In this document: in pieces, positions 12,735-28,917 of the stretch
Layout: every line of letters begins with the position of its first letter
Numbering within the stretch: position 1 is the first letter of the stretch
NCBI GenBank assembly: GCA_004332195.1
Contig: SJBG01000001.1
Coordinates: 124,001 to 188,000, forward strand
Origin: Desulfobulbaceae bacterium
GTDB lineage: Bacteria > Desulfobacterota > Desulfobulbia > Desulfobulbales > Desulfurivibrionaceae
Length of the DNA: 64,000 nucleotides
Direction of reading: 5' to 3'
Translations under genes and position numbers: made by a program
The notes under the pieces: generated by a model
Databases searched by the model: none
What the model saw: the letters and a program-made list of their open reading frames with translations, nothing else
Told to the model about the DNA's origin: nothing

Positions 12735-13484
12735 TTATGGCAATTGATTGGCCTTGATCATCTTGTGGTAGAGGATAAAGGGTGAAAGCCAGATAATCAT
12801 GTCGTCGAAATAGGCCTCGCTGTAGGTGGTTGAGACGAAGTCTTCGTCGGCGGCGATGCGGTAGCTGATGCCCGACGGCCCACCATTGATTGTGTCCTCA
12901 CCAGCGTTCTCCTCCTCGTTGTCTGAGGTAAAACTTGCCCAATTTTTGCCCATGGCCAGTACTACTGCCGGCGCTGGGACAGTGCCGCCGGCCGGTGGTA
13001 GAGTGATTCGCAGATCGCCGGTGCCAGGAGGAGTTTTTCTAAATTCACCCTTGACCCCTGAATAGACCCCTGTACCATCGTCAACTGAAGCCTCGGTAAA
13101 GCCAACATCAACCGAATAGCGCAGCGGATTCTTCCAGGCATCAAGCAACAGGCCATCGGCATTGACCGGCCCGCTGAGGCCCAAGGTGGCGGCGGGAACA
13201 AAACCATGCAACACCGTGCAAACCCCGTCTTCGTCTCGGGCCTCAGCGCCCTCACTTTCCGGGGTGGCCGGACAAGGCAATCGTCCACGGGCCTGAGCGA
13301 AGCCATACAAGGCCTTTTCCACTTCGGCAAGCTGGGCCCTGGTGTCGCTGCGCCTGATGGTCTCCTGTTTCTGGCCGAAGGGTATGAGCAGGCCGCCCAA
13401 AAGCAGCCCGATAATTACCAGAACGATGGCTATTTCCACCAGGGTGAATCCACCTTGGCGCTGGATTGTTTTTTTCAACTTCAT
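12735..13484 (-). CDS. Type IV prepilin-like protein (minor pilin of the MSHA-type locus)
   Basis: 249 residues from ATG 13484 (GGAGGGG upstream). Class III leader: MKLKKTIQRQGG then FTLVEIAIVLVIIGLLLGG, with the cleavage point after the second glycine and glutamate at +5 of the mature protein. The body has GRLPCPATPESEGAE and two conserved-looking cysteines. It would be cut and methylated by PilD and inserted in the inner membrane as a pilus or pseudopilus subunit. It sits downstream of the fused pilin-like gene at 13552; the extra start upstream at 13580 would overlap that gene. Confidence 0.8.
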   Translation of the reverse strand: MKLKKTIQRQGGFTLVEIAIVLVIIGLLLGGLLIPFGQKQETIRRSDTRAQLAEVEKALYGFAQARGRLPCPATPESEGAEARDEDGVCTVLHGFVPAATLGLSGPVNADGLLLDAWKNPLRYSVDVGFTEASVDDGTGVYSGVKGEFRKTPPGTGDLRITLPPAGGTVPAPAVVLAMGKNWASFTSDNEEENAGEDTINGGPSGISYRIAADEDFVSTTYSEAYFDDMIIWLSPFILYHKMIKANQLP

Positions 13485-13551
13485 CTCGACCCCTCCACTG
13501 TCTTTTTCATGAGTGGCAGAAGCGGCAGGATCCCGTTTCTGCTCTAAAAAT

Positions 13552-14754
13552 TTATTTGCATGACTTGGGAGCATGCTCAATCTTTTGGCCAGGGGTCAGG
13601 GTGAAAAGTATCTGGCAATCTGCAAACCTTAATGTGGCGACATTAAGGTTGGTTCGCTCATACGTCGTGATTGCGACCCAGTCATTGGCGGCCAACCAAG
13701 CTCTATTCCCCTGGTTACCAGCAATATAGTTGTTGATGGCAACTTTAAAGCCTGTACGATTGGCAGGATATTGGGGCGGGGTCTGGTTAACGTGATAAGC
13801 ATCCAGTGCTTTTTTCATCTCACCGGCGACCCTTATCGCTACGGCGGTCATCAATTCGTCAATCGTGATGTAGATCAAACGATCGTTGAACTCGTCATCG
13901 GAACGCCGCATAACAAAGCCGGAATCGGGATCTTCGATGACATGATGGGTATAGGTAGTGTTGGCTATGGTGATCCCCTCAAGAAAGTGAGTGGAGGCTG
14001 GAGCCGACCCTATACGGTTCTGACCGGCAAGCGGCGGGCCGGGGGCCATGATTACCACTGCCGCTCGGTTAGTCAGCTTGTCGCCCTGCTCATTGAACAC
14101 GGAGAACCAGACATTGTTTGGGGTGGCGGCAATGGTCTCTGTATTAATTATCGAGTACTGGCTATCTCTGCCTGGCTCTGATGATTTTACCAAGTGCCGC
14201 GCCACCGCATACCACAAGACCGCACCACTGCCGTCACGCAGTGGCGTCCCGAAAGCCGGCGGCCACCGCGGCGGATGGGGCGGATGGGGAATAGTGCCAC
14301 ATCCTCGCTCACTAAGGTGGGGCCACTTACCCAACAGGTGCCTGGTAGGATCAAAGGTGAGGTAATCGGAAATGCAATCGCCATGACCGTCGAATCTGCC
14401 ACGGTCGGGAAAAGGAAGTCCCCCCGGGGTTGACCTATTTTTGAGGGTTGGCGGACTACCGGCTAAGAGAAAAGCATGGGTATTAGTAACCGCGAAAGCA
14501 ATGACCAGTTCTTTCGCCTGAGCAAGGGCGCGCGTAGTGGCGGCTTGTTCAGTGCGTTGGGTTTGTCCCATGCCGCCCGCCATGAAGAGCATGCTCATTC
14601 CCCCAATAAAAAGTATCAAAATCAGCAACAAAGCCACGATACCTCGTTGGCTGGTAAGCCTGCTGCTCGGGTTTTTGCTGAGTTTTCCGGCCAGATCGGG
14701 TGAATAAGCTGAGAAACCGGTTTTTGTTTCCTCAGCCACCACTAAATATTTCAT
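13552..14754 (-). CDS. Pilin-like/PilX-like protein with an N-terminus taken from a HicB antitoxin
   Basis: 400 residues. Residues 1-23 (MKYLVVAEETKTGFSAYSPD...) match the start of HicB antitoxins and lie directly after hicA with an ATGA overlap. From ~residue 35 (SQRGIVALLLILILFIGG) it becomes a PilX/MshP-type protein with one N-terminal membrane helix, GLPFPDRGRFDGHGDC, and a pilin-like C-terminal part. I see no better internal start with a ribosome site, so the HicB start may now drive the pilin gene. The rest of HicB (zinc/RHH DNA-binding part) is missing. Near the 3' end lies a perfect hairpin (13625-13650). Confidence 0.75.
   Translation of the reverse strand: MKYLVVAEETKTGFSAYSPDLAGKLSKNPSSRLTSQRGIVALLLILILFIGGMSMLFMAGGMGQTQRTEQAATTRALAQAKELVIAFAVTNTHAFLLAGSPPTLKNRSTPGGLPFPDRGRFDGHGDCISDYLTFDPTRHLLGKWPHLSERGCGTIPHPPHPPRWPPAFGTPLRDGSGAVLWYAVARHLVKSSEPGRDSQYSIINTETIAATPNNVWFSVFNEQGDKLTNRAAVVIMAPGPPLAGQNRIGSAPASTHFLEGITIANTTYTHHVIEDPDSGFVMRRSDDEFNDRLIYITIDELMTAVAIRVAGEMKKALDAYHVNQTPPQYPANRTGFKVAINNYIAGNQGNRAWLAANDWVAITTYERTNLNVATLRFADCQILFTLTPGQKIEHAPKSCK
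13625..13650. repeat. Perfect 11-bp inverted repeat inside the pilin-like gene
   Basis: Arms AACCTTAATGT and ACATTAAGGTT are separated by four bases (GGCG). It encodes NLNVATLR on the minus strand, ~75-100 bp before the stop codon. Confidence 0.85.
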
Positions 14755-14939
14755 TTCTTTAACCCTGCTTGTCTGAAAACACTATTCTGAGCTCCCCACG
14801 CCATGTCATCGTTTGATTTATCTGCTACGGTGACCAAGCCATATTTACTCGAATGCTTAAATTGGCGATGACTTCCTCTGGTGCGAACCCAATACCATCC
14901 GGCATCTTTAAGGATTTTGATCACTTCTTTGACTTTCAT
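14751..14939 (-). CDS. hicA: HicA-type mRNA interferase toxin
   Basis: 62 residues, normal HicA length. MKVKEVIKILKDAGWYWVRT followed by RGSHRQFKH, which holds the catalytic histidine of the dsRBD-like HicA fold, and the C-terminal FRQAGLKK helix. HicA cuts mRNAs unless bound by HicB. Its start overlaps the stop of the upstream gene (ATGA) and its stop overlaps the start of the HicB-pilin fusion (ATGA). Since no full HicB is encoded here, either the toxin is inactive, or an antitoxin elsewhere neutralises it, or the short HicB head does something. Confidence 0.8.
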   Translation of the reverse strand: MKVKEVIKILKDAGWYWVRTRGSHRQFKHSSKYGLVTVADKSNDDMAWGAQNSVFRQAGLKK

Positions 14940-15538
14940 TCGTTTGTAAAAGTTTCATGGTGTTCGTTTGGCATAACCTCCGTTATCGTCTCAAAGGCAT
15001 CATAAATCCTCCCCCCCGCCATATCATAACTTTGGCCCGCTCGCAAAACGACAATCCCGGCTGATTGGGGTAGGTAAATTGGCACCCCGGTTGGTCCCGC
15101 CCGGTGCACCCTAACCTCCGCGCCGGTCACCGTTGTTACCCCATCCAGGTTGTTTACCTGGTTAAGCCAAAAAACATGTTGACCATCAGCCCGCCGAACC
15201 AGGCCTTGCAAGGTGAACACCCTGGTTGCCGGCGCCGGTTCAGGCTCCGGTCGGTCGGCATGTTCAGCGGGCGGTTCGACCACCTCGACAGGTCGCTCCG
15301 GCGCCGGCTGATGACGCAGCGCTTCAAGTTGCTCTCGCATGGCGGGGGTGGTCAATAAAAATCCCAGCTCAGGGTCCGGCCCGGCCAGACTGAGCGCCGG
15401 CAAAAGCAATCCACCAAGTCCACCAAGCATAACAGCCATGAGTCCCAGTCCCAGTCCCTTGCCCGGTCTGAATCTAAGCTGCTTTTTAATAACTTGGGTT
15501 TTTTTAATAACTTGGGTTAGTGTGAAGAATTGTTTCAT
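14936..15538 (-). CDS. Periplasmic protein of the MSHA-type pilus locus (MshK/PilP-like)
   Basis: 200 residues. A basic N-terminus with a TQVIKK duplication, a hydrophobic segment (GLGLMAVMLGGLGGLLLPALS, res ~28-50), a proline-rich linker and a compact C-terminal domain beginning FTLQGLVRRADGQHVFWLN. That pattern (a small beta domain after a Pro-rich spacer) resembles MshK/PilP proteins that link inner-membrane pilus parts to the secretin. The family call is inference from layout and context. The 18-bp DNA repeat at 15483-15518 produces the duplicated hexapeptide. Confidence 0.55.
   Translation of the reverse strand: MKQFFTLTQVIKKTQVIKKQLRFRPGKGLGLGLMAVMLGGLGGLLLPALSLAGPDPELGFLLTTPAMREQLEALRHQPAPERPVEVVEPPAEHADRPEPEPAPATRVFTLQGLVRRADGQHVFWLNQVNNLDGVTTVTGAEVRVHRAGPTGVPIYLPQSAGIVVLRAGQSYDMAGGRIYDAFETITEVMPNEHHETFTNE
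15483..15518. repeat. Perfect 18-bp tandem repeat in the mshK-like gene
   Basis: TTTTTAATAACTTGGGTT occurs twice in direct succession and encodes TQVIKK twice. The reading frame is kept because the unit is a multiple of three. Confidence 0.95.
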
Positions 15539-15917
15539 GGCTTTATCACCTCTTCCAACTCGGCGGCCCTATTTTATATTTGACCTCTTTTATATTTTTT
15601 TATATTTTCTCCACTCAAATCCGGGCATTGTATAATAGGTCTTTTCATGTCTGCAGAACAAGCTACCTACCTTCCCGGCCTTCCCGGCGGATTTTTAAGG
15701 GTTAGGTGGTCCTGGTCTCCAGGCGCTGGCCGGCACTTTTGGAGTATACATTGAGTCCAGAGATATTTTAAGACATCTTTTATAAAGATAGCTTCTAAGA
15801 GCTAGCTTCGGAAACAACTGAACTTTTTTTTACTGCGGTTGCTTCACGGACTTAAGGTACCAACAAGATCAGCGAGGCGCCTACACCGCGGTTTTCATCA
15901 ATAACAGAGGAGTTTAT
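15539..15917. other. 379-bp divergent spacer (mshK-like gene / wzz)
   Basis: No gene seen. The left third is T/A-rich with several TTTATATT runs next to the minus-strand gene. A TATAAT at 15631-15636 (plus direction) is a possible -10 box with only a poor -35. The right part holds small inverted runs around 15789-15810 and then the wzz ribosome site AGAGGAG at 15906-15912. Confidence 0.4.
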
Positions 15918-17480
15918 TTGGCCATGGATAAGGATTCCGGTTTTTCCTCCCGTCGCGCCGGCGACCCACCAACTGAATATCATCACCCATCCGATGAGAT
16001 CGATCTGTACGACCTCTGGTTCGTCATGCTGCGTCGCGTCTGGTGGATTGTTGGCGTAACCGCGCTCTGCCTCTTCTCTGGCTTGATCTATTGGCAAACC
16101 CAGGAGATAAGCACGCGTTATGTAACCTCCATTGAGATTGGAAAGGCCCCGTCGGTTGTTGGCGAACATACCGCGCACCCAGCTTTGGTGGAACCGGCAT
16201 CGGAGCTGTTGACGCGATTACAGGAAGCGGCATTACCGGTGCTGCGGCTGGAACTCGCCACCAAACACGACATGACGGTGGGGGAAATGCCGGAGGCGGA
16301 GTTCCGCCACGCAGATGGCGCCTTCCTGTTTATTGAAAGCGCCGTTGCCGATAATCAGCGGGAGCTGGCGGCAACCATGCATCGCCAATTGGCGGATTTT
16401 ACCCTCAACACTCATCAGGCCCTGGCGGCCCCCGCCCGGCTCAGGCTCCAGAGCCAAATGGCCAGTCTGGAACTAGAGCTGAAGGCACTTGAAGACGAAT
16501 CCACATTCCACTTGCGCAAATTAGCGGCAAAAGCAAAATTAGCTGAAGCGCAGGCAAAACAGGACCAAATATCGCAGGTGTTCCCCCGGGAGCAACGGAA
16601 CCGGGGTCGGGAAATAGCCCGGCTCAAGGAACAGTTGGGGGAGACTCAAGAAGCATACCGCATTAAACGGCAAGCACTGACGCATGAAATTCGCCAAAAC
16701 ACCGCGGCGGCGGACGCGACCAACGAGCTACGGGGACGCTTGCGCGACAGCATCAAGTTGGTCGCAGCAGAGCAAGAACTGCTCACTTCCCAGCTTGATG
16801 ACTTGCGGGTCTGGGTTGGTTCCGCCCGTGACCTGCAAAACCGGGCGTTGGCTCAACCTGACAACATCGGCGGGTTGGGCGCCCTGATGATGGGGAATAT
16901 CGCCCACACCGCTCATTTAGAGTACAGGCAGATGCAGTTGCGTTTAGAGATCAACTTGCCGGAGCGCCGCGCGGAACTGACAGGACGGCTTGAAGATGCG
17001 GGGCGCGAACTCACCGCCACTAAGGAACGCGGGGCGGAGTTGTCGACAGTCCTGAGCAAGCTCTCGTCCGACCATGGGCGCGATGAGCACGAGCGGGCAA
17101 GGGAAATCGAGCGGCTTAAAGATGCTATGGCCCTTGCTGCCGAGGATCACCAACGAACGGTTGCCGCGACGGCGCGCGCCATTAACCGCTTAGCAGTCGA
17201 GCTGGAACGCTTAGATGACGATTACGACCGGGAGTTGGCCGCAAAAAGGCAAAGCATCGCGCAGTTTCAGGCCTTTGTCAACCTCATGACCGACACCCGG
17301 GTCGCGGGGGTGTTCATAGCCGAGGAGCTTGTGGGTCGCGGCGGCGCGCTGATTCTTGCTCTGTCCCTGGTGTTGGGCGGCATGCTGGGCATTTTTACGG
17401 GATTTGTGGTGGAATTTCACCACAATGCCGGGCAACGCCTGCGCCGACAGCGGGAAAAAGAGACGCCGTACGACGTTTGA
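15918..17480 (+). CDS. Wzz/PCP-family polysaccharide chain-length regulator
   Basis: 520 residues. N-terminal DEIDLYDLWFVMLRRVWWIV leads into the first membrane helix (res ~39-57), a long charged, coiled-coil-rich periplasmic stretch (res ~150-460) and a C-terminal helix pair (GGALILALSLVLGGMLGIF). This is the two-helix frame of polysaccharide co-polymerases that set O-antigen or exopolysaccharide length; no kinase domain is attached. The start is either TTG at 15918 (five bases after AGAGGAG) or ATG at 15924. It is transcribed toward wbpM and lies between the two halves of the pilus locus. Confidence 0.8.
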   Translation: MAMDKDSGFSSRRAGDPPTEYHHPSDEIDLYDLWFVMLRRVWWIVGVTALCLFSGLIYWQTQEISTRYVTSIEIGKAPSVVGEHTAHPALVEPASELLTRLQEAALPVLRLELATKHDMTVGEMPEAEFRHADGAFLFIESAVADNQRELAATMHRQLADFTLNTHQALAAPARLRLQSQMASLELELKALEDESTFHLRKLAAKAKLAEAQAKQDQISQVFPREQRNRGREIARLKEQLGETQEAYRIKRQALTHEIRQNTAAADATNELRGRLRDSIKLVAAEQELLTSQLDDLRVWVGSARDLQNRALAQPDNIGGLGALMMGNIAHTAHLEYRQMQLRLEINLPERRAELTGRLEDAGRELTATKERGAELSTVLSKLSSDHGRDEHERAREIERLKDAMALAAEDHQRTVAATARAINRLAVELERLDDDYDRELAAKRQSIAQFQAFVNLMTDTRVAGVFIAEELVGRGGALILALSLVLGGMLGIFTGFVVEFHHNAGQRLRRQREKETPYDV

Positions 17481-17610
17481 AAAAGCGGTGGGTTTTTTTA
17501 CGTCCGCTTGATTGACTTGTTATGAGTTTTAGGCCATAACCAGCGCCTAAAGTGAAGTTTAGAAAAAGCGACCGGCTCCCGGCCTTTAACTGTTGTCCGT
17601 AATAAATCAA

Positions 17611-19506
17611 ATGAGAACATGGAGTTTCTGGATCATTCTGGGCGCGGACATCTTGCTGGTGATCGCCGCCCATTTGTTGGCCTACGGCATTCGCTTCGAT
17701 TTTGTGCTGGGCGAGCGGTGGTGGGGCCAGATCTGGGCGGTGCTGCCCTGGCTGCTGCCAATGAAGATCGCCGTTTTCTACTTTTTCGGCCTTTACCGGG
17801 GGATGTGGCGTTACGCCAGCCTTACCGACCTGCTCAACATCAGCAAGGCCGTGGTGGTTTCCTCCTTGCTGGCCATGGGGGTGCTGCTGCTGCTTTATCG
17901 TTTCGAGGGCTTTTCCCGCAGTGTTTTTGTGTTGGACGCGGTTTTCACCTTTTTGCTAGTGGGTGGCCTGCGAGTTGGCGTGCGGCTGGTTTATCAGCAT
18001 TTTTCCTCCGGTTATTCTTTGGCGAGAGGGCAAGGGCCGGCCTTAACTCGGCGTAAATCGCTGTTGATTATCGGGGCTGGAGACGCGGCGGAAAAACTCG
18101 CCCGGGAGATTTTCGACAACCGCGCCTTGCCTTATCTGATCAAGGGTTTTCTCGACGATCATCCAACCAAAATTGGCCGGATGATTCACGGCATTCCAAT
18201 TCTGGGGCCGATTGCCGATCTTAACCGGTGGCTGGCGCAAACCGCCGCTAGAGAAGTGTTGATTGCCATCCCTTCGGCGGGGCGCGACCAGATGAGCCGG
18301 ATAGTTGAAATTTGCCGGGAAAGCGGCGCAGTTTTCAAGATCTTGCCGGGCCTGGGGGAGATTATCAGCGACAAGGTGAGCATCAAAGCCATCCGCGATG
18401 TGGCGTACAATGATTTACTGGGTCGGCCGCCGGTCCGCCTGGATCTGCATAAAATTGAGGATATCCTGAGCGGGCAAACAGTACTGGTCACCGGGGGAGG
18501 TGGCTCGATCGGCTCCGAGCTTTGTCGCCAGATTCTGCGCTTTAAGCCCGGTAAGCTGATTCTTTTTGACGCCGGCGAGGAAAACCTTTATCGGATCGAA
18601 ATGGAGGTGCTGCACGAGATCGGCTTTCGGGATTACGTTACGGTGCTGGGCAAAGTGCAAGACCGGGAGCTATTAAACCATGTTTTTCAACAACACCAGC
18701 CGACCGTGGTTTTTCACGCCGCGGCCTACAAGCACGTGCCCTTGGTCGAGGAAAACCCCTGGGAGGGGGTGTACAACAATATTTTCGCCACCAAACGCTT
18801 AATGGAGGTCGCGCTGGCGCACAAGGTGGCGCGTTTTATCCTGGTTTCCACCGACAAGGCGGTGCGGCCCACCAACGTCATGGGGGCCAGCAAGCGCATG
18901 ACCGAAATTATCATGCAGGCTTATTGCCATCAGGCCGCTTCGGCCGCTTCGGCCGCTTCGGCCCCCCCTCGCTTTATGGCGGTGCGCTTCGGCAATGTGC
19001 TGGGCTCTTCCGGTTCGGTTATCCCCCTGTTCAAGCGTCAGATCGAAATGGGCGGCCCGGTGACCGTCACCCACCCGGATATGACCCGCTATTTCATGAA
19101 TATCTCGGAGGCGGCTCAGTTGATTTTGCAGGCGGCCACCATGGGAGCAAACGGCGAAATCTTTATTCTGGAAATGGGGACCCCGGTGCGTATCGGTCAA
19201 ATGGCCCGGGATTTAATCAGGCTTAGCGGCAAAGAGCCGGACACCGAGATTGAAATCAAGCACATCGGCTTGCGTCCCGGCGAGAAGATGCATGAAGAGT
19301 TGATTACCGAAGGCGAAGGCATAGTCTCCACCGAACACGAAAAAATCATGGTGCTGCGCGGGGGCGGCAGCTCCCTGGCTAAACTGCGCGAGCCCCTGGA
19401 TCGCCTGAAGCGCTATGCCGGGAGGCATGATGCCGCGGGAATCAAAGCCGAACTGAAAAAGATCATTCCCGAGTACACTCCCCGGCCCGACAACGAACAT
19501 AGTTGA
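17611..19506 (+). CDS. wbpM: WbpM/FlaA1-like UDP-sugar 4,6-dehydratase, membrane-anchored
   Basis: About 630 residues. Four N-terminal membrane helices, a CoA-binding/Rossmann-like domain (LLIIGAGDAAEKLAREI), then the SDR domain with VTGGGGSIGSELCRQI. The active-site region STDKAVRPTNVMGASKR has MxxxK in place of YxxxK, as in WbpM. Such enzymes convert UDP-GlcNAc to a 4-keto-6-deoxy sugar for surface glycans or pilin glycosylation. An AAS triplet (18934-18960, 9-bp DNA repeats) is an odd insert. ATG 17611 is preferred to a TTG at 17593, without a strong ribosome site for either. Confidence 0.85.
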   Translation: MRTWSFWIILGADILLVIAAHLLAYGIRFDFVLGERWWGQIWAVLPWLLPMKIAVFYFFGLYRGMWRYASLTDLLNISKAVVVSSLLAMGVLLLLYRFEGFSRSVFVLDAVFTFLLVGGLRVGVRLVYQHFSSGYSLARGQGPALTRRKSLLIIGAGDAAEKLAREIFDNRALPYLIKGFLDDHPTKIGRMIHGIPILGPIADLNRWLAQTAAREVLIAIPSAGRDQMSRIVEICRESGAVFKILPGLGEIISDKVSIKAIRDVAYNDLLGRPPVRLDLHKIEDILSGQTVLVTGGGGSIGSELCRQILRFKPGKLILFDAGEENLYRIEMEVLHEIGFRDYVTVLGKVQDRELLNHVFQQHQPTVVFHAAAYKHVPLVEENPWEGVYNNIFATKRLMEVALAHKVARFILVSTDKAVRPTNVMGASKRMTEIIMQAYCHQAASAASAASAPPRFMAVRFGNVLGSSGSVIPLFKRQIEMGGPVTVTHPDMTRYFMNISEAAQLILQAATMGANGEIFILEMGTPVRIGQMARDLIRLSGKEPDTEIEIKHIGLRPGEKMHEELITEGEGIVSTEHEKIMVLRGGGSSLAKLREPLDRLKRYAGRHDAAGIKAELKKIIPEYTPRPDNEHS

Positions 19507-19519
19507 GGCGCCGGTTTTG

Positions 19520-19539
19520 GTTGACCGATGCCGGTCAAC
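19520..19539. terminator. Hairpin between convergent wbpM and the mshJ-like gene
   Basis: A perfect 8-bp stem GTTGACCG/CGGTCAAC with a four-base loop lies 14 bases after the wbpM stop. No T-run follows on either strand, so it is at best a weak terminator. Confidence 0.35.
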
Positions 19540-19578
19540 AAGGAGACTTAATCCTTTGGCAAAATATTCTTGGCTCTT

Positions 19579-20184
19579 CTATGATTCGGGATCTACGACC
19601 AGCCACCACAATTCGCAGTCGGCTGTGACCGGAGCTTTAATAATGATCCCATCTTCCGGCAAGGGGTCACGTTTCAGCGCGCAGGATTGCACCCAGAACA
19701 ACCCGATATCAGCCTGGCGCAACCCGGCAAGCAGGGCAAATAAATCGCCCTCATGAAACAGTCGCATCTCAAGCCGCATCCGGCTGACGGTTAACGGAGC
19801 GGTTATCTTAGCAACCTCCGGCAAAGAAAAAGGGGCGTAAGCTTCCAGTGAGAAGGTGATTTTCGGTAAATTCAGTTTTTGCGTTTGTTTTTGCAGTTGC
19901 TCCATCCACTCCAAACGCCGCTCTTTGCCGATTACCCCACCGGCTTGTAGCGCCAAAAAGTGATCTTGAAACGCGATTATGGTGTTTTGGGCCGCAATCG
20001 CGGCGAAATAATTATTTCTGGCCTCTTGCAACCGCCGCTCAAGTCTCGCGTATTCTTTTTGGCTGTTCTGCGCGTAAAAGTATATGCCGGTGGCGCAAAG
20101 TAAAACAACCAAAGAAACCAGGGACCAGCCGATCAAGGTCGGGCGCAGATAAAGCCAGTCAATTTCCAGTTCGGCTATTTTCAT
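19579..20184 (-). CDS. PilO/MshJ-like inner-membrane pilus assembly protein
   Basis: 201 residues: short cytoplasmic N-terminus, one helix (LIGWSLVSLVVLLCATGIYFYA), a coiled coil (res ~45-75) and a periplasmic alpha/beta domain. This is the PilO/GspM layout. The start overlaps the stop of the PilM/PilN-like gene by four bases, so it is the next gene in the same operon. It would sit in the inner-membrane alignment complex of the pilus. Sequence identity to a named family is weak; the call rests on topology and position. Confidence 0.6.
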   Translation of the reverse strand: MKIAELEIDWLYLRPTLIGWSLVSLVVLLCATGIYFYAQNSQKEYARLERRLQEARNNYFAAIAAQNTIIAFQDHFLALQAGGVIGKERRLEWMEQLQKQTQKLNLPKITFSLEAYAPFSLPEVAKITAPLTVSRMRLEMRLFHEGDLFALLAGLRQADIGLFWVQSCALKRDPLPEDGIIIKAPVTADCELWWLVVDPES

Positions 20185-21842
20185 TCTTCTACCTTGTTGA
20201 GAGTCGGGGCATCGAGGGCGGGCAACTCCCGGGGAATAACGCGAAGCACTAACTGAAGATCAAAAGGCGCGCTGTGATGCACCGCAAAAGACGTCCCGTA
20301 GAGTGCGATCTCCGACCTGAAATCAAGAGGTTGCTGGTGAGCAATCTTTACCCGGATCACCCCCGGCATTTGCCGGCGCAAGGCTTGCTCAAATTGCCGC
20401 GCCCTAAGCAGCCCTCGGCGCAAATTAGCATCGGGTAAGTTTTGTTGACCCTTGATTTGCACAATTTGCCGAAACCCCGTATCCCCTGGTAAGTCGGGCT
20501 TGGTGGGTAAGTCAGGATCGGCTGGTAAATCAGGCTCGGCCTGGTAAATCAGGAAATCAGGATCGGCCGGCGTTGCCGGCCCGGCTGTTTTCAGCCGCCA
20601 GGAGATTTGCTCGGGCTGAAAATCGGGAAACTGGATCAAGATGGGACCTAAACTGCGCAAAAAGGGCTCGGGGGTGGCCGGCACTTGACTCAACCATTGC
20701 GCGCTGATCACCGCTGCGCGCATTTTAGCAGCCTGCTCAATTAAAACTTCCTCGTGAGCATGCTCGGCCGCCAAAAGGGCGAAGTGGTCTAGTTGGTCAG
20801 TTAGCATCAGCAGCCGATCTTTGGCGCTTAGCACTTGCGTAAACGGCCCCAAAGCCCAAAGAAAGACCGCCCCCAAGCTCGCCATCGCCACAAAACCGAC
20901 CGCCCGCTTGATTGTCCGATGCAGGGCGTAACGCCGTTCCTGCGTCCGGGCGTAGCCGCCGCCTCGCAGGGAAGCGGCAAGCTGCGCGAGCACCAGATTG
21001 GCCTGGTAGCCCCGGGCGGCGCTGGCATCAACCAAACCCAATTGCCGAGCTATCTCGCTTAGTTGGCGGCTATGCAGGCGAATATTGGGGGCTATATCCC
21101 CGGGGTTGTCGGCCGGAGCCTGCAGCCGTTCTTCACTGCTGATCAACCAAACATCAAGATCGCTGCGGTCAAATGGCAACAGTTGCAGCCCTTGCAGGTA
21201 ACGCTTGCTTTTGCCGATTTCACTCACCAGATAATCGGCATGACGCTCCGTGGTGTCGTCAAGATGGCTGGTTAAGGCCAGACGGCTGATCGCCAGTTGT
21301 CCGTCGCGAAAGAAGGTCTGCCGCAGCCCCGACCCTTTTACATCAATCATAATCAGGACCGTCTTGGCAGCAAGCCCCAAAGGCTTGCCTAGCTTGCCGA
21401 TCAGGTATGGCACGGAGTGAATGGCGATCAAGGGCGCCTGGTGGCGACTTAAAACATCAATCCAGGGTTTTAAAATCTCGTTGTTGGTGATCGCGGAAAA
21501 AAGAACGCGATCATCCCGCCGACCGGTCTTTTCCCGACCAAGAACCTGATAGCGGCGCCAGGTGGCGGCGCGAAACAGCCGCGCGGCGTTACGCGCCAAA
21601 AGCTGATGACGATTGATCAGGACATGGGGGATATTCTCGACGCGAAACTCTTCCTCGACCAGATCAAGTAAAATAGTATTGGGGATTTGCGGCCGTGCGG
21701 CCAATAACGCGGCAAACGCCGCAACCCCTTCCTCGCCGGGCGGGAGAAGGCTTGCCTGCTTTAAGGTGGGGCCTTGCCAAAAATAAACCGTGACCTCATC
21801 AGCGGTAATAAAAAGCAGGCGCTTGTCGCTTTTGTCGTTCAT
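20181..21842 (-). CDS. MshI-like PilM/PilN (GspL-like) pilus assembly protein
   Basis: 553 residues. Residues 1-~290 look like the actin-fold cytoplasmic domain of PilM/GspL (RLLFITADEVTVYF start; VLIMIDVKGSGLRQTFFRDG in the middle). A membrane helix follows (AVGFVAMASLGAVFLWAL, res ~308-325), then a coiled coil and a PilN-type periplasmic part. It combines what PilM and PilN do in separate-gene systems, as GspL and MshI do. A PADPD/TKPDLP repeat (res ~445-460) is a low-complexity insert. Confidence 0.65.
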   Translation of the reverse strand: MNDKSDKRLLFITADEVTVYFWQGPTLKQASLLPPGEEGVAAFAALLAARPQIPNTILLDLVEEEFRVENIPHVLINRHQLLARNAARLFRAATWRRYQVLGREKTGRRDDRVLFSAITNNEILKPWIDVLSRHQAPLIAIHSVPYLIGKLGKPLGLAAKTVLIMIDVKGSGLRQTFFRDGQLAISRLALTSHLDDTTERHADYLVSEIGKSKRYLQGLQLLPFDRSDLDVWLISSEERLQAPADNPGDIAPNIRLHSRQLSEIARQLGLVDASAARGYQANLVLAQLAASLRGGGYARTQERRYALHRTIKRAVGFVAMASLGAVFLWALGPFTQVLSAKDRLLMLTDQLDHFALLAAEHAHEEVLIEQAAKMRAAVISAQWLSQVPATPEPFLRSLGPILIQFPDFQPEQISWRLKTAGPATPADPDFLIYQAEPDLPADPDLPTKPDLPGDTGFRQIVQIKGQQNLPDANLRRGLLRARQFEQALRRQMPGVIRVKIAHQQPLDFRSEIALYGTSFAVHHSAPFDLQLVLRVIPRELPALDAPTLNKVEE

Positions 21843-21855
21843 CGCTCAAGCCATC

Positions 21856-23061
21856 TCAGAACTGGATCTCACCGATAAGGTTGTAAATAGGGCCAAGCAC
21901 CGAGAGCATGATCCAGCCGAGAATTACCCCCAGGATTATGGTAAGGGTTGGTTCAAGAGCCGCCTCAAGCTTGTCGATTTTTTCCTTGACGTCCCGGTCG
22001 TAAAAATAGCTGACATTGAGCATGGAACTCTCTAAATCGCCGGTATCCTCCCCGACACTGATCATCCGCACGACAAAACGGGGAAAGATCTCGTTGCCGC
22101 TGAAAGCGGCGCTCAGACTGGAGCCTTCGGAAACCTGGCGAGCCGCGTTGGTGATGGTATGGGCGACCGCCGTATTTTTAGAAGTCCTGGTTAAAATATC
22201 AAGGGTCTGTAACACCGGGACCCCGGCCCGGTACATCAAGGCAAAAACCTTGGCAAAGCGGGCGATAATGATCTTTTTCAAAATTTCACCCAGCAGCGGG
22301 ATGCGCAGCTTAAGAAAGTCGGCTCGCAGACGAAAGCTAGGATGCCATTTGGCCGCGGCATTATAGCCCAGCCCGATCGCCAGAAAAGCGGCAAGAAAGA
22401 CGGGCCAGTAACTACTGATTATATCTGAGGTAAAAATCAAAGCCTTGGTGTGGGCGGGCAGTTCGCCTTCCATCCCGAGGATAAATTCCACCATCTTCGG
22501 CACCAAATAGATCATCAGGAAGGCGACCACCGCAAAAACGACGGTGGCGACAAAGGTGGGATAGGTGACGGCCTTTTTGGCCCGGGCGATGATTTCATCC
22601 TCCCATTTCAGGTTTTCGCCGAGGTTTTTCATGATTGCCGGCAATTCACCGCTATGCTCGCCAACTCGAACCAGATTAACAAAGACCTCATCAAAGGTAT
22701 CGGGAAATTCGGCTAAGGCATCCGAGAAGGTTTGGCCGTCGCGGATGCGATTGGCGGTTATCATCAGAACTTCTCGAAAAGCGGGGTTTTCAGCGTTGTC
22801 TCGTAAGTCATCAAGGCTGACTAACAGGCCGACCCCGGCGTAGAGCAGATGTTCGAGTTGAAAACAAAAATCGACCAGCTCGCGGCGAGTAACCTTTTCG
22901 CGCCGTAAACGGAAACCTGTTCTGCTCATCTCTTTAGCGGAAAGCAGGTCCAACCTCATGCCGTTTAAGCTCGATTCCAGGGTGTTAAGATCAGTCGCGA
23001 CAAGCTGGCCACGACGGGTGTTGCCGGTGGCATCCATGGCCTTGTATTGAAAAAGTTTCAT
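21856..23061 (-). CDS. mshG: PilC/GspF-type inner-membrane platform protein (MshG)
   Basis: 401 residues with two T2SSF domains. N-terminal half with LLYAGVGLLVSLDDLRDN and VRVGEHSGELPAIM, helices near res 170-190 and 215-235, second repeat with MYRAGVPVLQTLDIL and SVGEDTGDLESSM, and a C-terminal helix. The duplicated gly-rich motif before each long helix is the GspF signature. It forms the membrane platform turned by the assembly ATPase. The start overlaps the stop of mshE by four bases. Confidence 0.9.
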   Translation of the reverse strand: MKLFQYKAMDATGNTRRGQLVATDLNTLESSLNGMRLDLLSAKEMSRTGFRLRREKVTRRELVDFCFQLEHLLYAGVGLLVSLDDLRDNAENPAFREVLMITANRIRDGQTFSDALAEFPDTFDEVFVNLVRVGEHSGELPAIMKNLGENLKWEDEIIARAKKAVTYPTFVATVVFAVVAFLMIYLVPKMVEFILGMEGELPAHTKALIFTSDIISSYWPVFLAAFLAIGLGYNAAAKWHPSFRLRADFLKLRIPLLGEILKKIIIARFAKVFALMYRAGVPVLQTLDILTRTSKNTAVAHTITNAARQVSEGSSLSAAFSGNEIFPRFVVRMISVGEDTGDLESSMLNVSYFYDRDVKEKIDKLEAALEPTLTIILGVILGWIMLSVLGPIYNLIGEIQF

Positions 23062-24761
23062 ACCATCTTTCTGTCGGTCAAGTTGATTACCCTGGTAACT
23101 TCATCAATACTGGTGACCCCGGTCCGCAACCTGCGCACCGCGTCATTGACCATGGGGCAAAATCCATGGCTCATGGCAATCGCGCGCAGCTCTTTCATTG
23201 GCGCCTGAGTGGCTACGGCGTCGTCCAAATCTTCAGTCATCGGCAAAATTTCCACCAGGGCCAGGCGGCCCTTGTAGCCTTGGTAATCGCAGGCCGCGCA
23301 GCCGACTTGCCGCCAGAGGCGCAAGCCTTCTTCCTTAACGGCATGCAGCAGCCGCAGTTCAATCTCGGTGGCGTCATACGATTCCCGGCATTTGAGACAT
23401 AAACGTCGGATAAGTCGTTGCGCGACAATGCCGATAATTGAACCGGCAAGAATACCGGGATGCAGACCAAGATCGAGCAGCCGGGGAATGGCGCCCAAAG
23501 CCGAATTGGTGTGCAGGGTCGCGTATACCTGGTGACCGGTCATTGCCGCCCGCAGGGCCATGAGCGCCGTGTCTTCATCACGGATTTCACCCACTAAAAT
23601 CACATCGGGGTCTTGGCGCATCATCGCGCGAATACCGGTAGCAAAGGTAAGGCGGGCCGCTTCGTTGACCGTGGACTGACGAATGCCCAACATCAGGTAC
23701 TCCACCGGGTCTTCTAAAGTCATGATATTGACCCCCTCCTGATTGATGGCGTTCAGCAGCGAGTAAAGAGTGGTGGTTTTGCCGCTGCCGGTGGGGCCGC
23801 AGGCCAGGATGATGCCCTCTGGTTTGGCCATCATGGTTTGCAGGGTAAACAACTCCTGTTCAGCTAAGCCAAGTTCTTCGATGGGCAGAATGCCTTTCAT
23901 TCGGTCGAGAACCCGCAAAACTATATTTTCACCGTAGAGCGTGGGCAATAAAGAGACCCGGAAATCAACAATCCTGCCGTAAAAGGTCATCTGGACGCGA
24001 CCATCTTGCGGCGCCCTGGTTTCAGCAATATTGAGACTAGAGATGACCTTGATGCGAATAACTATGGCCGACCAGTACTTGCTATGCAGACTGCGAATCT
24101 GGCGCAAAACCCCGTCGATTCGATAGCGAATCCGGAGAAAACCGGCCTCGGGCTCAAGGTGGATATCGGAAGCGTTTCTTTTTACCGCGTCAAGCAAGAT
24201 GGCGTCCACCAGGCGCACCACGGGATGACCGAAGGTGGATTGATCCTGCCACAGACTAGTCTGATCGATCTCGCCGGTTTCGATTTCATGGAGAATTCCA
24301 TCAATGGAGAGTTCAAAACCATAGAATAAATCAATGGCCTGAATGATCTCGGACTCGCCGGCCAACACCGTTTCGATGGCAAAGCGACCGCCAAGCAGGG
24401 CTGAAAGTTGATCTACGGCCACGACATTGAAGGTGTCGGCCATGGCCAGGACCAGAATTTTCTCCTCTTGCTTACAGGCAATCGGCAACAGGGTATAACG
24501 TTTGGCCCAGGCCAGCGGCACTAAAGCGAGCGCGTCGGGGTCGGGGACGGCCTTAGTTAGATCGATACTTTTTTGCCGCAACGACCGGCCCAGCGCGTCT
24601 CGCAAGGTTCCGGCCGAGACAAAACCCAGCCTGATCAGGCACTTGCCCAACTGCTCGCCCTGTTTCTTTTGCTCAATGATCGCGATCCGCAGTTGGTCTT
24701 CGGTGATAATTCCCTGGGCCAGCAGGGTTTCGCCAAGGCGTTGTGGTTTCTTCTCGCTCAT
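23058..24761 (-). CDS. mshE: PilB/GspE-type pilus assembly ATPase (MshE)
   Basis: 567 residues from ATG 24761. N-terminal GspE_N domain (RLGETLLAQGIITEDQL...), Walker A GPTGSGKTTTLYS, Asp-box/Walker B DVILVGEIRDEDTA, His-box HTNSALGAIPRLLDLG and a zinc tetracysteine (CLKC...CAAC). This is the hexameric ATPase powering pilus extension. GGAGG lies ten bases upstream. The 5' end overlaps the C-terminal codons of the TPR gene by 89 bases. MshE proteins can bind c-di-GMP through an N-terminal RLGxxL motif, and RLGETL here is suggestive. Confidence 0.9.
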   Translation of the reverse strand: MSEKKPQRLGETLLAQGIITEDQLRIAIIEQKKQGEQLGKCLIRLGFVSAGTLRDALGRSLRQKSIDLTKAVPDPDALALVPLAWAKRYTLLPIACKQEEKILVLAMADTFNVVAVDQLSALLGGRFAIETVLAGESEIIQAIDLFYGFELSIDGILHEIETGEIDQTSLWQDQSTFGHPVVRLVDAILLDAVKRNASDIHLEPEAGFLRIRYRIDGVLRQIRSLHSKYWSAIVIRIKVISSLNIAETRAPQDGRVQMTFYGRIVDFRVSLLPTLYGENIVLRVLDRMKGILPIEELGLAEQELFTLQTMMAKPEGIILACGPTGSGKTTTLYSLLNAINQEGVNIMTLEDPVEYLMLGIRQSTVNEAARLTFATGIRAMMRQDPDVILVGEIRDEDTALMALRAAMTGHQVYATLHTNSALGAIPRLLDLGLHPGILAGSIIGIVAQRLIRRLCLKCRESYDATEIELRLLHAVKEEGLRLWRQVGCAACDYQGYKGRLALVEILPMTEDLDDAVATQAPMKELRAIAMSHGFCPMVNDAVRRLRTGVTSIDEVTRVINLTDRKMV

Positions 24762-26310
24762 CGTCCGGGAGCCTCCCGTGATTGTCGTTCTCCAGTATGG
24801 CAATTCGCGCGTTAACTAGGTTGCGATCAAAAGAGACCGCCAGCTCCAGGCCGGCCAGAGTCAGGGCCTTTCGGTAGTGCCGCGCGGCTTCGTAGTTTAA
24901 GCCGAGATGTTCGAGGCTGACCGCCAGATTAAAGGCGTAGTCGGCCGCGGAAGCGTCGGTCTCGGCGGGGGGCCGGAGTGCGCCCGCCAGGGCTAAGGCC
25001 AGGGCCTTGGTGTAGGCTAATCTCGCGGCCGGCCAGTCGTGCTGAGCCGCCAGGAGATTGCCTAGTCCAAAATGCAGCGCGGCGTTGTCCGGATGCCTGA
25101 GCAGCAGCAACCGTAATTCACTTAATGATCGGGAAATATCACCGACCGGGGCGGTAAGCAGCATCCCGGCCAGAGCCATGGGGTCGCCGGGGTCACGATC
25201 CAGCAGCCGCCGGTAGTAGGTGGCGGCCAGGCCAATCTCGCCGCGCCGGTAGTAGGTGGCGGCAATGCCGAGCAGGGCCTGGCGCTGCCCGGGATTTAGC
25301 TGCAAAATTTGCCGGTAAATCCGGGCGGCCCGCTCGATATCGCCCAGTTTATACGCGTCATAAGCCTCCTCAAGCGTTTGATCAATGGCCGGCGGGGCGG
25401 TCCGCCGGGTAATGACAATGGGGCGGGGGCGGTCGGGTAAAACAATTGCCTCCTCGGGCGGAGTTGGCGCCGGCTGGACATCCGGCGCGGCAACGACGGG
25501 CGCGACAACGACGGGGTCTGGTTGCGGCGGCGGCGCAACCGGGATCGCGACTATCGCCGCGGGCGGCGGATCTACCGGCGGCGGCGGTTGATCCGCCGCC
25601 CGCGGGGCCGCCGGAAGTGGGACCGGGAGGGGTAGCCGGGCTTCAAGGTCGGCCTGATTAACCGCCGGGGGCTTAAGAAAATGCCGGTAACTCAAGGAAG
25701 AGAGGCCAATCACGCTCATCAACCCGACAATCCCCAGGGCCAGCAATAAGGGTCGTTCTTGTAAAGACCGCCAGCCGGCGGTCGATTTTTTTGCCAGAAA
25801 AATCGTGCGGGCCTTCGTCGGGGAAGGTCCGTCATCAATGGTCGTAAGCCCCCGGGTGGCGGCGGCTTTAGCTACCGCCGCCACCCGGGGGCTTACCGAG
25901 GGCGGCGCGAAATCCGGATCGGCCGAATTTACTTCAAGCCCGATAGCCGGCCGGGGTTGCGGGGTGCGCGCCAAGTCCAACCCCGATCCCGGCTTTAGTT
26001 CCAGCTTCAGTTCCGGCCCCGACTTCGGCCCCGGTTCCGGCTTCAGTTCAAACTCCAGCTCCGGCGCCGGCTTCAGCTCAAACTCCGGCTCCGGCTCCGG
26101 CTCCGGCTTCAGCTCAAACTCAGGCCCCGGCGCCGGTTCCCGTTCCAGTTCAGGGGTCGACGTTGACGCCAGTTCAGGGGTTGACGTTGACGCCGGCGCT
26201 GACGCTGGCGCTGACGCTGACCTTGATTCAAATTTCGCCGACTCGCCCTGCCCTTCGGCTCTTTTTTTCGCCTTCTCCGCCCTGGTCAAGGCGTCTATCA
26301 ACAAACTCAT
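24673..26310 (-). CDS. TPR protein with low-complexity linker (MshN-like)
   Basis: 545 residues. Starts MSLLIDALTRAEKAKKRAEG, a pattern shared by MshN/GspB-like proteins, then ~110 residues of repetitive Glu/Pro/Lys/Phe/Leu (EPEFELKP type), a helix near res 190-210 (LLLALGIVGLMSVIGL), a Pro-rich periplasmic linker and at least four TPR units (res ~320-520). It would help hold the secretin or cell wall during pilus assembly. A perfect 22-bp-arm hairpin lies in its coding sequence (25844-25896). Confidence 0.7.
   Translation of the reverse strand: MSLLIDALTRAEKAKKRAEGQGESAKFESRSASAPASAPASTSTPELASTSTPELEREPAPGPEFELKPEPEPEPEFELKPAPELEFELKPEPGPKSGPELKLELKPGSGLDLARTPQPRPAIGLEVNSADPDFAPPSVSPRVAAVAKAAATRGLTTIDDGPSPTKARTIFLAKKSTAGWRSLQERPLLLALGIVGLMSVIGLSSLSYRHFLKPPAVNQADLEARLPLPVPLPAAPRAADQPPPPVDPPPAAIVAIPVAPPPQPDPVVVAPVVAAPDVQPAPTPPEEAIVLPDRPRPIVITRRTAPPAIDQTLEEAYDAYKLGDIERAARIYRQILQLNPGQRQALLGIAATYYRRGEIGLAATYYRRLLDRDPGDPMALAGMLLTAPVGDISRSLSELRLLLLRHPDNAALHFGLGNLLAAQHDWPAARLAYTKALALALAGALRPPAETDASAADYAFNLAVSLEHLGLNYEAARHYRKALTLAGLELAVSFDRNLVNARIAILENDNHGRLPDDEREETTTPWRNPAGPGNYHRRPTADRDH
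25844..25896. repeat. Perfect 22-bp inverted repeat inside the mshN-like gene
   Basis: Arms at 25844-25865 and 25875-25896 are exactly complementary around a nine-base loop, all inside the reading frame. On the minus strand it encodes SPRVAAVAKAAATRGLT, just before the membrane-helix region. The GC-rich stem would be very stable in mRNA and DNA. Confidence 0.95.
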
Positions 26311-26321
26311 GACTTACCCAT

Positions 26322-27917
26322 TTAGAACCCCGGGCCTAGGGGATGTCGAGGGATGGGCGGGGCCTTAAGAAAGTCGCGATACTCGCGCAGGTCGGCGTCC
26401 AGGCTGGCCTGGCGCACGACCACCGGGCGAATAAAGATCACCAGTTCGGTTTTGCTCGCCGTTTCTTCCCGGTAACCAAATACATTTCTTAAAACCGGCA
26501 TCCGGGAAAGAACGGGCGGACCGGCTTTTTCTTTTCTCATCGAATCCTGCATCAGGCCGCCAAGCACCGCAATCTGGCCGCTGGCTACGCGAAGTATTGA
26601 TTCCACCTCACGCACCTGCAATTCGGGGATTCTACTTTGAATATTCTCACGGGCCAGGTCCGGGTTGGGGTCGTTGACGTGGCCGACAATTCGGGTAATG
26701 GTCGGCCGCACATTCAGGGTGACCTGCCCGGACTCGCTGATCTGGGGGGTTACCGCCATCACAAAGCCGATCGGCACGGTGTGCACCGTGGTCTCAAAGG
26801 TGACGGTCCGCAGAGTATCGGCCGTGGCCGGGGTCACTTCAACCTCCATGGTAAAATGAACCCGATTATCCACCACCCGCAACATCGCGGTCTGATTATT
26901 GAGCACCATCAGCTTGGGGCTGGAGAGCACCCTAAGATCGCCAAACCGGGCCAGTGCCTGGATGGTCACCCGTAACCGGTGAGGATCGTCGCCTCGACCT
27001 TCATCGATGATCAGCCGAGTAAAGGGCGCAGTCGGGAAATTACCCCCCAGATAACTCTGGACAAAATTGAATTTCCCGCCATCGCGGCCCAGCATCTCCC
27101 AGTCAATCCCGGCCTGATAGCGATCGTTGAGGTCGACCTCAACCACGGTGGCCTCGATCAGCACCTGGCGCAAGGCCCGGCCCAGCAACAGATCGATAAA
27201 ATGTTGCACCTCCCGGTGCTGGCGCGCGGTGGCCCGCACCGCGATCAAGCCGGTTTCGGGGTTGCCGATAACTGCGGGAACCTCGTCGGCACCGCCGCCG
27301 GCCGCCGGCCCCACCCCGACCAGCGCCGCAATATTGCTCAGCAAAGCCTGCCAGAAATTATTGACTGACTCCTGGGTCAAGGTGGTGACCGAACCCCCGC
27401 CGATTTCCGCGATCACCCCGACCTGCCCGGTGGAACCACGGATGATATTGACATAATCAATGATGTAATTGCGCCAAAACGGCCGGTCGGGAACAATAAT
27501 CAGCCCGGCGCCGTAAATATCCCAGCGAATGTTTACCTGGCGGGCGACGCGGGCCAGAATCTGGGGCAGGGTCTGGTCGATGACATTGAGGGTGACCTTT
27601 CCCTGGATCTCGGGATGAATATCAACATTGATCGCCGCGTCACGCGCCAGGGCAAAGAGCAGCTCGCGGACCGGGACATCATGCACCTCCACCGAAAACA
27701 GCTCGAGCTGCTGCTCAATCGGGCCGGGGGCCGGCAGCGGCGGCTGGCTAATCACCGCGGGCGGGGGCGGCATCGGCGTCGGCGGTCGAGGCGGCAGCTC
27801 AAGGTGGCGACCGGCAGTCGGCCGCTCCGGCAACGAAGCGCCGCAGCCCACGACCGTTAGCCCCAGGACGAGCAGGGCCAAAAGAAGACCCGCGTGCTTA
27901 AAGAATCGCATCGGCAT
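26322..27917 (-). CDS. mshL: Outer-membrane secretin, lipoprotein type (MshL/PilQ)
   Basis: About 530 residues. Lipoprotein leader ending LTVVGC (cysteine ~res 25), Pro-rich spacer, N-domains including a Secretin_N block (TGLIAVRATARQHREVQHFI), and the C-terminal secretin domain with VLGGLMQDSM and PVLSRMPVLRNVFGYRE. It forms the outer-membrane gate for the pilus. Start ATG 27917 (or 27911, six bases later) follows AAGGA/GAGGA; a longer frame to 27977 would run into the mshM end. Next to mshM upstream (13 bp) and the TPR gene downstream (11 bp). Confidence 0.9.
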   Translation of the reverse strand: MPMRFFKHAGLLLALLVLGLTVVGCGASLPERPTAGRHLELPPRPPTPMPPPPAVISQPPLPAPGPIEQQLELFSVEVHDVPVRELLFALARDAAINVDIHPEIQGKVTLNVIDQTLPQILARVARQVNIRWDIYGAGLIIVPDRPFWRNYIIDYVNIIRGSTGQVGVIAEIGGGSVTTLTQESVNNFWQALLSNIAALVGVGPAAGGGADEVPAVIGNPETGLIAVRATARQHREVQHFIDLLLGRALRQVLIEATVVEVDLNDRYQAGIDWEMLGRDGGKFNFVQSYLGGNFPTAPFTRLIIDEGRGDDPHRLRVTIQALARFGDLRVLSSPKLMVLNNQTAMLRVVDNRVHFTMEVEVTPATADTLRTVTFETTVHTVPIGFVMAVTPQISESGQVTLNVRPTITRIVGHVNDPNPDLARENIQSRIPELQVREVESILRVASGQIAVLGGLMQDSMRKEKAGPPVLSRMPVLRNVFGYREETASKTELVIFIRPVVVRQASLDADLREYRDFLKAPPIPRHPLGPGF

Positions 27918-27930
27918 TTCCTCATTTCCT

Positions 27931-28917
27931 TTAGGGAGTACCCTGTTTCGCGGCTGAGAAAAAACCCCCAAACTCACCGGAAAAATAAAAAACCAAGCCT
28001 GACAGCCCCAGGACGACCACGATCAGCCCCAGGATCAGCCCCAGGGCCAAACCCCGGCGCAGTGCCCGGCGCAGTGCCGGGCGCCAAGACGGGGGCACCG
28101 CGCCGAACTCGCTGTCTTTAATCGCCGCGCGAACGTGTTTGGCCCGCACCGTAAAAGCCGAATCGGCATAGGCGGCCAGCAGGGCCTTATCGGCCAGAAT
28201 ATTAATCCGCCGACTAAGGCCCCTCGCGGCCCCGGCAATAAGTTTCGTGGCCCGGGCATCAAACAAGGTCGCCCCATTATAGCCCGAGGCCTGGAGGCGA
28301 AAGCGGAGATAGTCCGCAGTTTCCGCGGCGCTGAGGGGCTGCAAGGCGAAGCTGTGGGTAATTCTTTCCCGAAACTGCCGAATATTCAGGCCCCGCAGCT
28401 TGTTGTCCAGCTCCGGCTGACCAAACAGCACAATTTGCAGCAACTTATGCCGATGGGTTTCCAGATTACTGATCAAACGAATTTCTTCAAGGGCTTTCAG
28501 GGCCATACCCTGGGCCTCCTCGATAAAAACCACCACGTTACGGCCGGCCTCGTGCTGCCTGAGGAGATAATCCTGCAAAAGCTGCATCACCACCAGCCGT
28601 TCGGTGGTTCTGGTCACCGGCAGTTTCAGCTCAAACGCGATGGCGTAAAGAATATCTTGCGAAGAAAGGCTGGGGTTGGCAATATAGACAAGATCCACAA
28701 CCCCTGCCAGGTGCCGGAGCAGCATCCGACAGAGCATGGTCTTGCCGCTGCCCACCTCCCCAACCACCTTGATAATGCCCTCCCCTGATTTGATCGCGTA
28801 AATCAAGGCCTCAAGGATCAGCCCGCGCCCGCCGCCGGCAAAAAAGAAGGCCGGATCGGGAGTAATCCGAAAAGGGGCCTGAGTCAGGTTGAAATGGTCA
28901 AGGTACATAATTTGCAC
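27931..28917 (-). CDS. mshM: ExeA/MshM-type AAA ATPase
   Basis: 328 residues. Starts MYLDHFNLTQAPFRITPDP (typical of ExeA-like secretion ATPases), Walker A GEVGSGKTMLCRML (~res 44), Walker B VVFIEEAQGM, and a single C-terminal helix (GLALGLILGLIVVVLGLSGLVFYF). ExeA helps localise secretin multimers through the cell wall; MshM is its counterpart in MSHA loci. It is the first gene of the leftward pilus operon. Confidence 0.88.
   Translation of the reverse strand: MQIMYLDHFNLTQAPFRITPDPAFFFAGGGRGLILEALIYAIKSGEGIIKVVGEVGSGKTMLCRMLLRHLAGVVDLVYIANPSLSSQDILYAIAFELKLPVTRTTERLVVMQLLQDYLLRQHEAGRNVVVFIEEAQGMALKALEEIRLISNLETHRHKLLQIVLFGQPELDNKLRGLNIRQFRERITHSFALQPLSAAETADYLRFRLQASGYNGATLFDARATKLIAGAARGLSRRINILADKALLAAYADSAFTVRAKHVRAAIKDSEFGAVPPSWRPALRRALRRGLALGLILGLIVVVLGLSGLVFYFSGEFGGFFSAAKQGTP

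Follow-up and report, generated by a model that had tools for sequence, protein, structure and literature searches.

Class 1 hicAB modules are compact, and their HicB has no DNA-binding domain (PMC10865869). The fold of HicB is a beta-beta-beta-alpha-beta partial RNase H (PMC10865869); in solved complexes this partial RNase H domain blocks the histidine of HicA, and Glu47 is among the residues named as essential for contact with HicA in the HicB of S. pneumoniae (PMC11594946). Prepilin peptidase, acting on the cytoplasmic side, cleaves from type IV prepilins a leader that varies in length and has Gly or Ala as its last residue; long leaders also occur in other pilins, and Glu at position +5 is frequent but not obligatory, there being tip-capping subunits without it (PMC10191384).

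The locus described here, on the minus strand of a 64,000-nucleotide stretch (the window) of a Desulfobulbaceae genome (G000), joins sequences of both kinds, and is very probably a decayed hicAB module that an MSHA-like type IV pilus operon has captured, the start of hicB now serving as the start and most of the leader of a pilin. It resembles Class 1 modules in that a 62-codon hicA with the catalytic His24, within the range of 60-85 residues, lies upstream of hicB sequence and overlaps it by ATGA, as in L056, L057, L058, L095 and others (11 of the closest modules by an automatic count), but it is unlike them in that hicB breaks off after codon 23 and continues as a pilin, with no antitoxin fold left, the 23 matching residues standing against 60-90 residues with a partial RNase H fold in a Class 1 HicB. 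HicB sequence in frame with another domain is also found in the fused HicA/HicB proteins of Classes 11-13 (PMC10865869) and in locus L102, which keep the HicB fold, whereas only its first two strands are found here and the partner is a pilus subunit. In L102 (Poribacteria), the gene downstream of hicA (2501-2683) encodes a full HicB domain with a long C-terminal extension, 300 amino acids in all. The pilin part resembles minor pilins of MSHA-like systems in operon position, identity to the closest three (48-57%), a Gly at the cleavage site and a helix without Glu5, but differs in its leader, where 23 codons of hicB stand in place of the first native codons and bring the length to 38 residues versus 16-21. 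Literature searches for a HicB-pilin fusion found nothing on point. The parts are thus of known kinds in a new arrangement, which is of modest general interest.

Layout of the locus

The order along the minus strand is a 200-codon gene, hicA, a 400-codon open reading frame (14754-13552, the fusion) and a pseudopilin gene (Table 1). ATGA overlaps, which the original prediction had claimed for the first three of these genes, are present at 14936-14939 (200-codon gene and hicA) and at 14751-14754 (hicA and fusion). The 200-codon gene has no Pfam match, and its position suggests the label MshK-like. Upstream of the fusion are the genes of a full MSHA-like machine (AAA, secretin, TPR, T2SSE with MshEN, and T2SSF), and a prepilin peptidase (A24) gene is located on contig 15 (E=1.6e-23), so that a prepilin encoded here would have both assembly genes nearby and a peptidase in the genome. 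The pilus operon is split by two polysaccharide genes on the opposite strand (window 15918-19506, plus strand), encoding a Wzz-like protein and a nucleoside-diphosphate-sugar epimerase/dehydratase of the Polysacc_synt_2 family, whereas the homologues of 19579-20184 and the 200-codon gene lie side by side in relatives.

Table 1. Features of the hicA-pilin region, in window positions.
Feature	Positions	Strand	Basis or remark
MshK-like gene, 200 aa	14936..15538	-	open reading frame directly upstream of hicA; its TGA overlaps the hicA ATG (ATGA)
AT-rich 3' tail of MshK-like gene	14940..14985	-	GC 0.36-0.46 versus at least 0.53 slightly further upstream; possibly part of the inserted DNA
hicA, 62 aa, complete HicA toxin domain	14751..14939	-	PF07927, GSHRQFKH motif
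HicB head (fusion codons 1-23), antitoxin start codon and remnant	14686..14754	-	match to L056 HicB
Native rest of pilin leader, K24 to G38, up to predicted prepilin peptidase site	14641..14685	-	aligns with orthologue leaders (KLSNKFFKRLQSQEG etc.)
Mature minor pilin, residues 39-400	13552..14640	-	hydrophobic N-terminal helix, no Glu at +5; orthologues
Pseudopilin gene, N_methyl motif, overlapping the end of the fusion	12735..13580	-	PF07963, E=2.2e-6; follows the pilin in all relatives

A HicB head joined to a minor pilin

The fusion starts with MKYLVVAEETKTGFSAYSPDLAG (at greater length, MKYLVVAEETKTGFSAYSPDLAGKLSKNPSSRLTSQRGIVALLLILILF), and its similarity to HicB covers residues 1-23, through G23, and then stops. 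The original prediction gave the length of this head correctly as about 23 residues, although the string that it quoted has 20. The nearest intact HicB, from the Nitrospina metagenome-assembled genome L056, is identical to the head at 19 of 23 residues and 51 of 69 bases, and its gene likewise overlaps hicA by ATGA; the overlap and the GCAGGGTTAAAGAAATGAAA start region of the fusion match the intact modules L056 and L123. When the intact L056 HicB was searched against the whole of G000, the head of the fusion was the sole match (query residues 1-28, E=2.6e-7), with no further remainder of hicB elsewhere. The head alone matched no Pfam family, and searches of Pfam, NCBIfam and PHROGs with the head or with the fusion pointed to no useful family. 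A position-specific scoring matrix (PSSM) built from 72 intact HicB heads scored the head at +50 bits, versus -18 for the next best of the 63,837 stop-free 23-mers in six frames of the window and -11 for the best of 100,000 shuffles. Within HicB the head lies low in the range of conservation (50.0 bits, versus a leave-one-out minimum of 48.9 and a median of 81.1). About 47 residues of HicB have been lost beyond the head; all 72 intact HicBs have at least 44 residues past that point.

Plasmid and viral HicA loci were collected along with the 80 closest from one genome for each of 84,980 species. These 80 are all followed by HicB sequence (80/80), and a HicB head alone joined to another protein was seen in none of them. 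Loci missed by the automatic pattern were recovered by tblastn, among them L053, a copy at a contig edge, L067 and L076, in which the frame is disturbed, and L120, which changes sequence after about 52 residues.

The remainder of the fusion (residues 24-400) is conserved in at least ten relatives (orthologues in G047, G214, G221, G019, G024, G016, G194, G197 and G182 among them); residues 24-331 are 55% identical to an open reading frame of G047, and identity to orthologues in the same order is 48-57% in the closest three and lower in the others. The sequence has the pattern of a minor prepilin, in which a hydrophilic leader that closes with Gly or Ala precedes 20-25 hydrophobic residues: the mean Kyte-Doolittle value is -0.59 for residues 1-38 and +2.5 for residues 39-61, the most hydrophobic 19-mer begins at residue 39, and G38 is invariant in all eight aligned sequences (the fusion and seven orthologues). 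The +5 residue is Leu, and none of the seven orthologues has Glu there. These features support identification of the downstream part as a minor pilin of an MSHA-like system without Glu5. No significant match to the fusion was found in Pfam or NCBIfam, including any PilX or MshP model, so of the description PilX/MshP-like in the original prediction the pilus protein stands and the family assignment is not confirmed. With the HicA_toxin match of hicA (PF07927, E=1.2e-17), the 19/23 match and the pilin orthologues, the central claim of that prediction, a complete hicA followed by a gene that keeps only the start of HicB and then reads in frame into a pilin, is borne out.

Origin of the fusion and start of translation

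The MshK-like gene directly precedes the pilin gene with no hicA between them, in the row MshK-like gene, pilin, pseudopilin, in eight relatives: G019, G024 and G016 belong to the same family, and G197, G194, G182, G100 and G053 to the same order. Neither hicA nor hicB was seen at this spot in any relative examined (at least ten with the pilin), nor was there a complete hicB between a hicA and the pilin, and the fusion occurs in one genome; hence hicA and the HicB stretch were added in this lineage. Native pilin leaders of relatives are short ((TTG)KHSTIKFNNKISKRLHSQEG, (TTG)EYSTIKLSNKFFKRLQSQEG, MNRIGWHLPILRSERG and MTAPTQPERLPNRERG), and the fusion aligns with the first kind from K24 onward. 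In a MAFFT alignment the three closest orthologues share a gap of 17 columns that coincides with fusion residues 7-23. Only the first few native leader codons are thus missing from the fused pilin, and the predicted leader of residues 1-38 (versus 16-21 residues in relatives) comprises 23 residues from HicB and 15 native ones.

Ahead of the predicted cleavage site, the fusion has ATG, GTG or TTG only at codons 1, 5 and 6, each of which belongs to the HicB part; no further start-type codon occurs until codon 40, past the cleavage site and inside the membrane helix. The pilin, if made, therefore starts in the old hicB, at the ATG or at one of the GTG codons 5 and 6, of which the ATG seems the likelier. 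The fusion start is immediately preceded by the last bases of hicA (GCAGGGTTAAAGAAATG), which resemble the corresponding stretch of an intact module (L123: GCAGGGCTAAAGAAATG); thus the start region was also inherited. The proposal that a toxin-antitoxin module was captured in a pilus operon, with the antitoxin giving the pilin its start, agrees with the relatives without hicA, their short leaders and the lack of another usable start.

The likeliest course of events is that a compact Class 1 hicAB pair was inserted between the MshK-like gene and the minor pilin gene, that hicB lost everything after codon 23 (its last approximately 47 codons) and the pilin its start and first few codons, and that this loss joined the two in frame. 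A single insertion that replaced the start of the pilin gene and a later deletion that joined hicB to it are both compatible with the data. The stretch 14685-14939 has a GC content of 0.43, versus 0.545 for the window, and is in the lowest 5-6% of the window; hicA itself is at 0.42, and low GC runs on into the last 45 or so bases of the 200-codon gene, so a short piece of upstream DNA may have arrived together with the module. Translation would proceed from the hicB start, with a ribosome-binding stretch in the 3' end of hicA, and prepilin peptidase should cut after G38, leaving the mature pilin unchanged and the HicB head a passenger. Such a fusion would be tolerable because the leader of a type IV prepilin is thrown away, and its replacement would cost the mature protein nothing.

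The locus shows clearly, and in a datable form, a toxin-antitoxin module that was broken and in part put to new use, with its start codon and its start region kept to drive a host gene; being known from one genome, it has little bearing on toxin-antitoxin biology at large. Four same-genus genomes that were searched, one of them a single contig, lack the whole operon, judging from the pilin and pseudopilin genes, and the fusion has one carrier genome; both facts count against this reading, in that they give no sign of retention over time.

State of hicA and other readings of the locus

Capture of the module leaves hicA with an intact catalytic motif but no antitoxin of the matching type, and so offers a test case for how orphan toxins are tolerated. 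The HicA product matches Pfam HicA_toxin over positions 2-58 of the 58-position profile; His24 is present in all 110 HicAs compared. The chances are about even that hicA is already inactive, its frame being kept open by the needs of the pilin, whose start region lies in the 3' end of hicA and whose translational coupling requires an open frame upstream. Selection should act against an active toxin that has no antitoxin, and the protein has two departures (D13A and G40D) among 21 columns of at least 85% conservation, two more at T50A and P48W, and the lowest score of 84 against close relatives. The score is ordinary, however, once comparisons are limited to 64% identity (20 of 44 score lower), and GSHRQFKH is intact, so that the sequence does not prove decay. 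An inactive HicA is compatible with capture of the module as set out above and would add to it only the state of the toxin.

Restraint of HicA by a HicB acting in trans is without support: the genome contains no match to HicB of the PF15919 type, and its only other HicA-like gene has a partner of its own. This second gene (L002 1471-1997; contig 18, about 24480-25006) overlaps an upstream UPF0150/HicB-like gene, in an apparently intact pair.

Alternatively, the head itself might be functional, either as a leader or after its release by prepilin peptidase, binding HicA and so linking toxin control to pilin production. Such a role, the second idea of the original prediction, would accord with the open hicA and its kept motif directly upstream in a coupled pair, with the retention of 19 of 23 residues, and with the lack of another PF15919-type HicB in the genome. 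It is nonetheless quite improbable, because the head supplies only about two strands, at most, of the five-element fold that HicB needs: about 47 residues are gone, the region of Glu47 falls in the missing part, and the PSSM score of the head is near the leave-one-out minimum. That the HicB-derived leader restrains HicA, with the making or processing of the pilin controlling the toxin and the antitoxin reduced to the signal peptide of another protein, is correspondingly very doubtful.

There is likewise very little prospect that the join is an artefact of assembly, by which the remainder of hicB and the start of the pilin gene were lost or two sequences were wrongly joined. The genome is a draft of 21 contigs and the join is seen in one genome only, but the junction falls within a contig of 311 kb, is flanked on either side by genes in the same operon order as in the relatives, and keeps the reading frame, and a search for the rest of hicB at other places in the genome found none. 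The junction region of 401 bases is single-copy in this genome, offering no other match to misdirect an assembler, and repeat-driven misassembly was rejected on this ground. The fusion is thus taken as real, and as probably an accidental event in a single genome.

That the head is a long native leader resembling HicB by chance is a negligible prospect: native leaders of the closest orthologues do likewise start M-K/E-Y/H, but this was rejected on the margin between the head and any other 23-mer of the window, the L056 match and the own-genome search, and the segment sits directly after hicA with the canonical overlap and is missing from all orthologues.

The MSHA-like operon (window 12735-28917), missing in the four same-genus genomes, is present in other genera of the family. 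G000 is 1.66 Mb in size and rated 100% complete, and same-genus genomes of 99-100% completeness are 2.8-3.1 Mb; its small size may reflect genome reduction.
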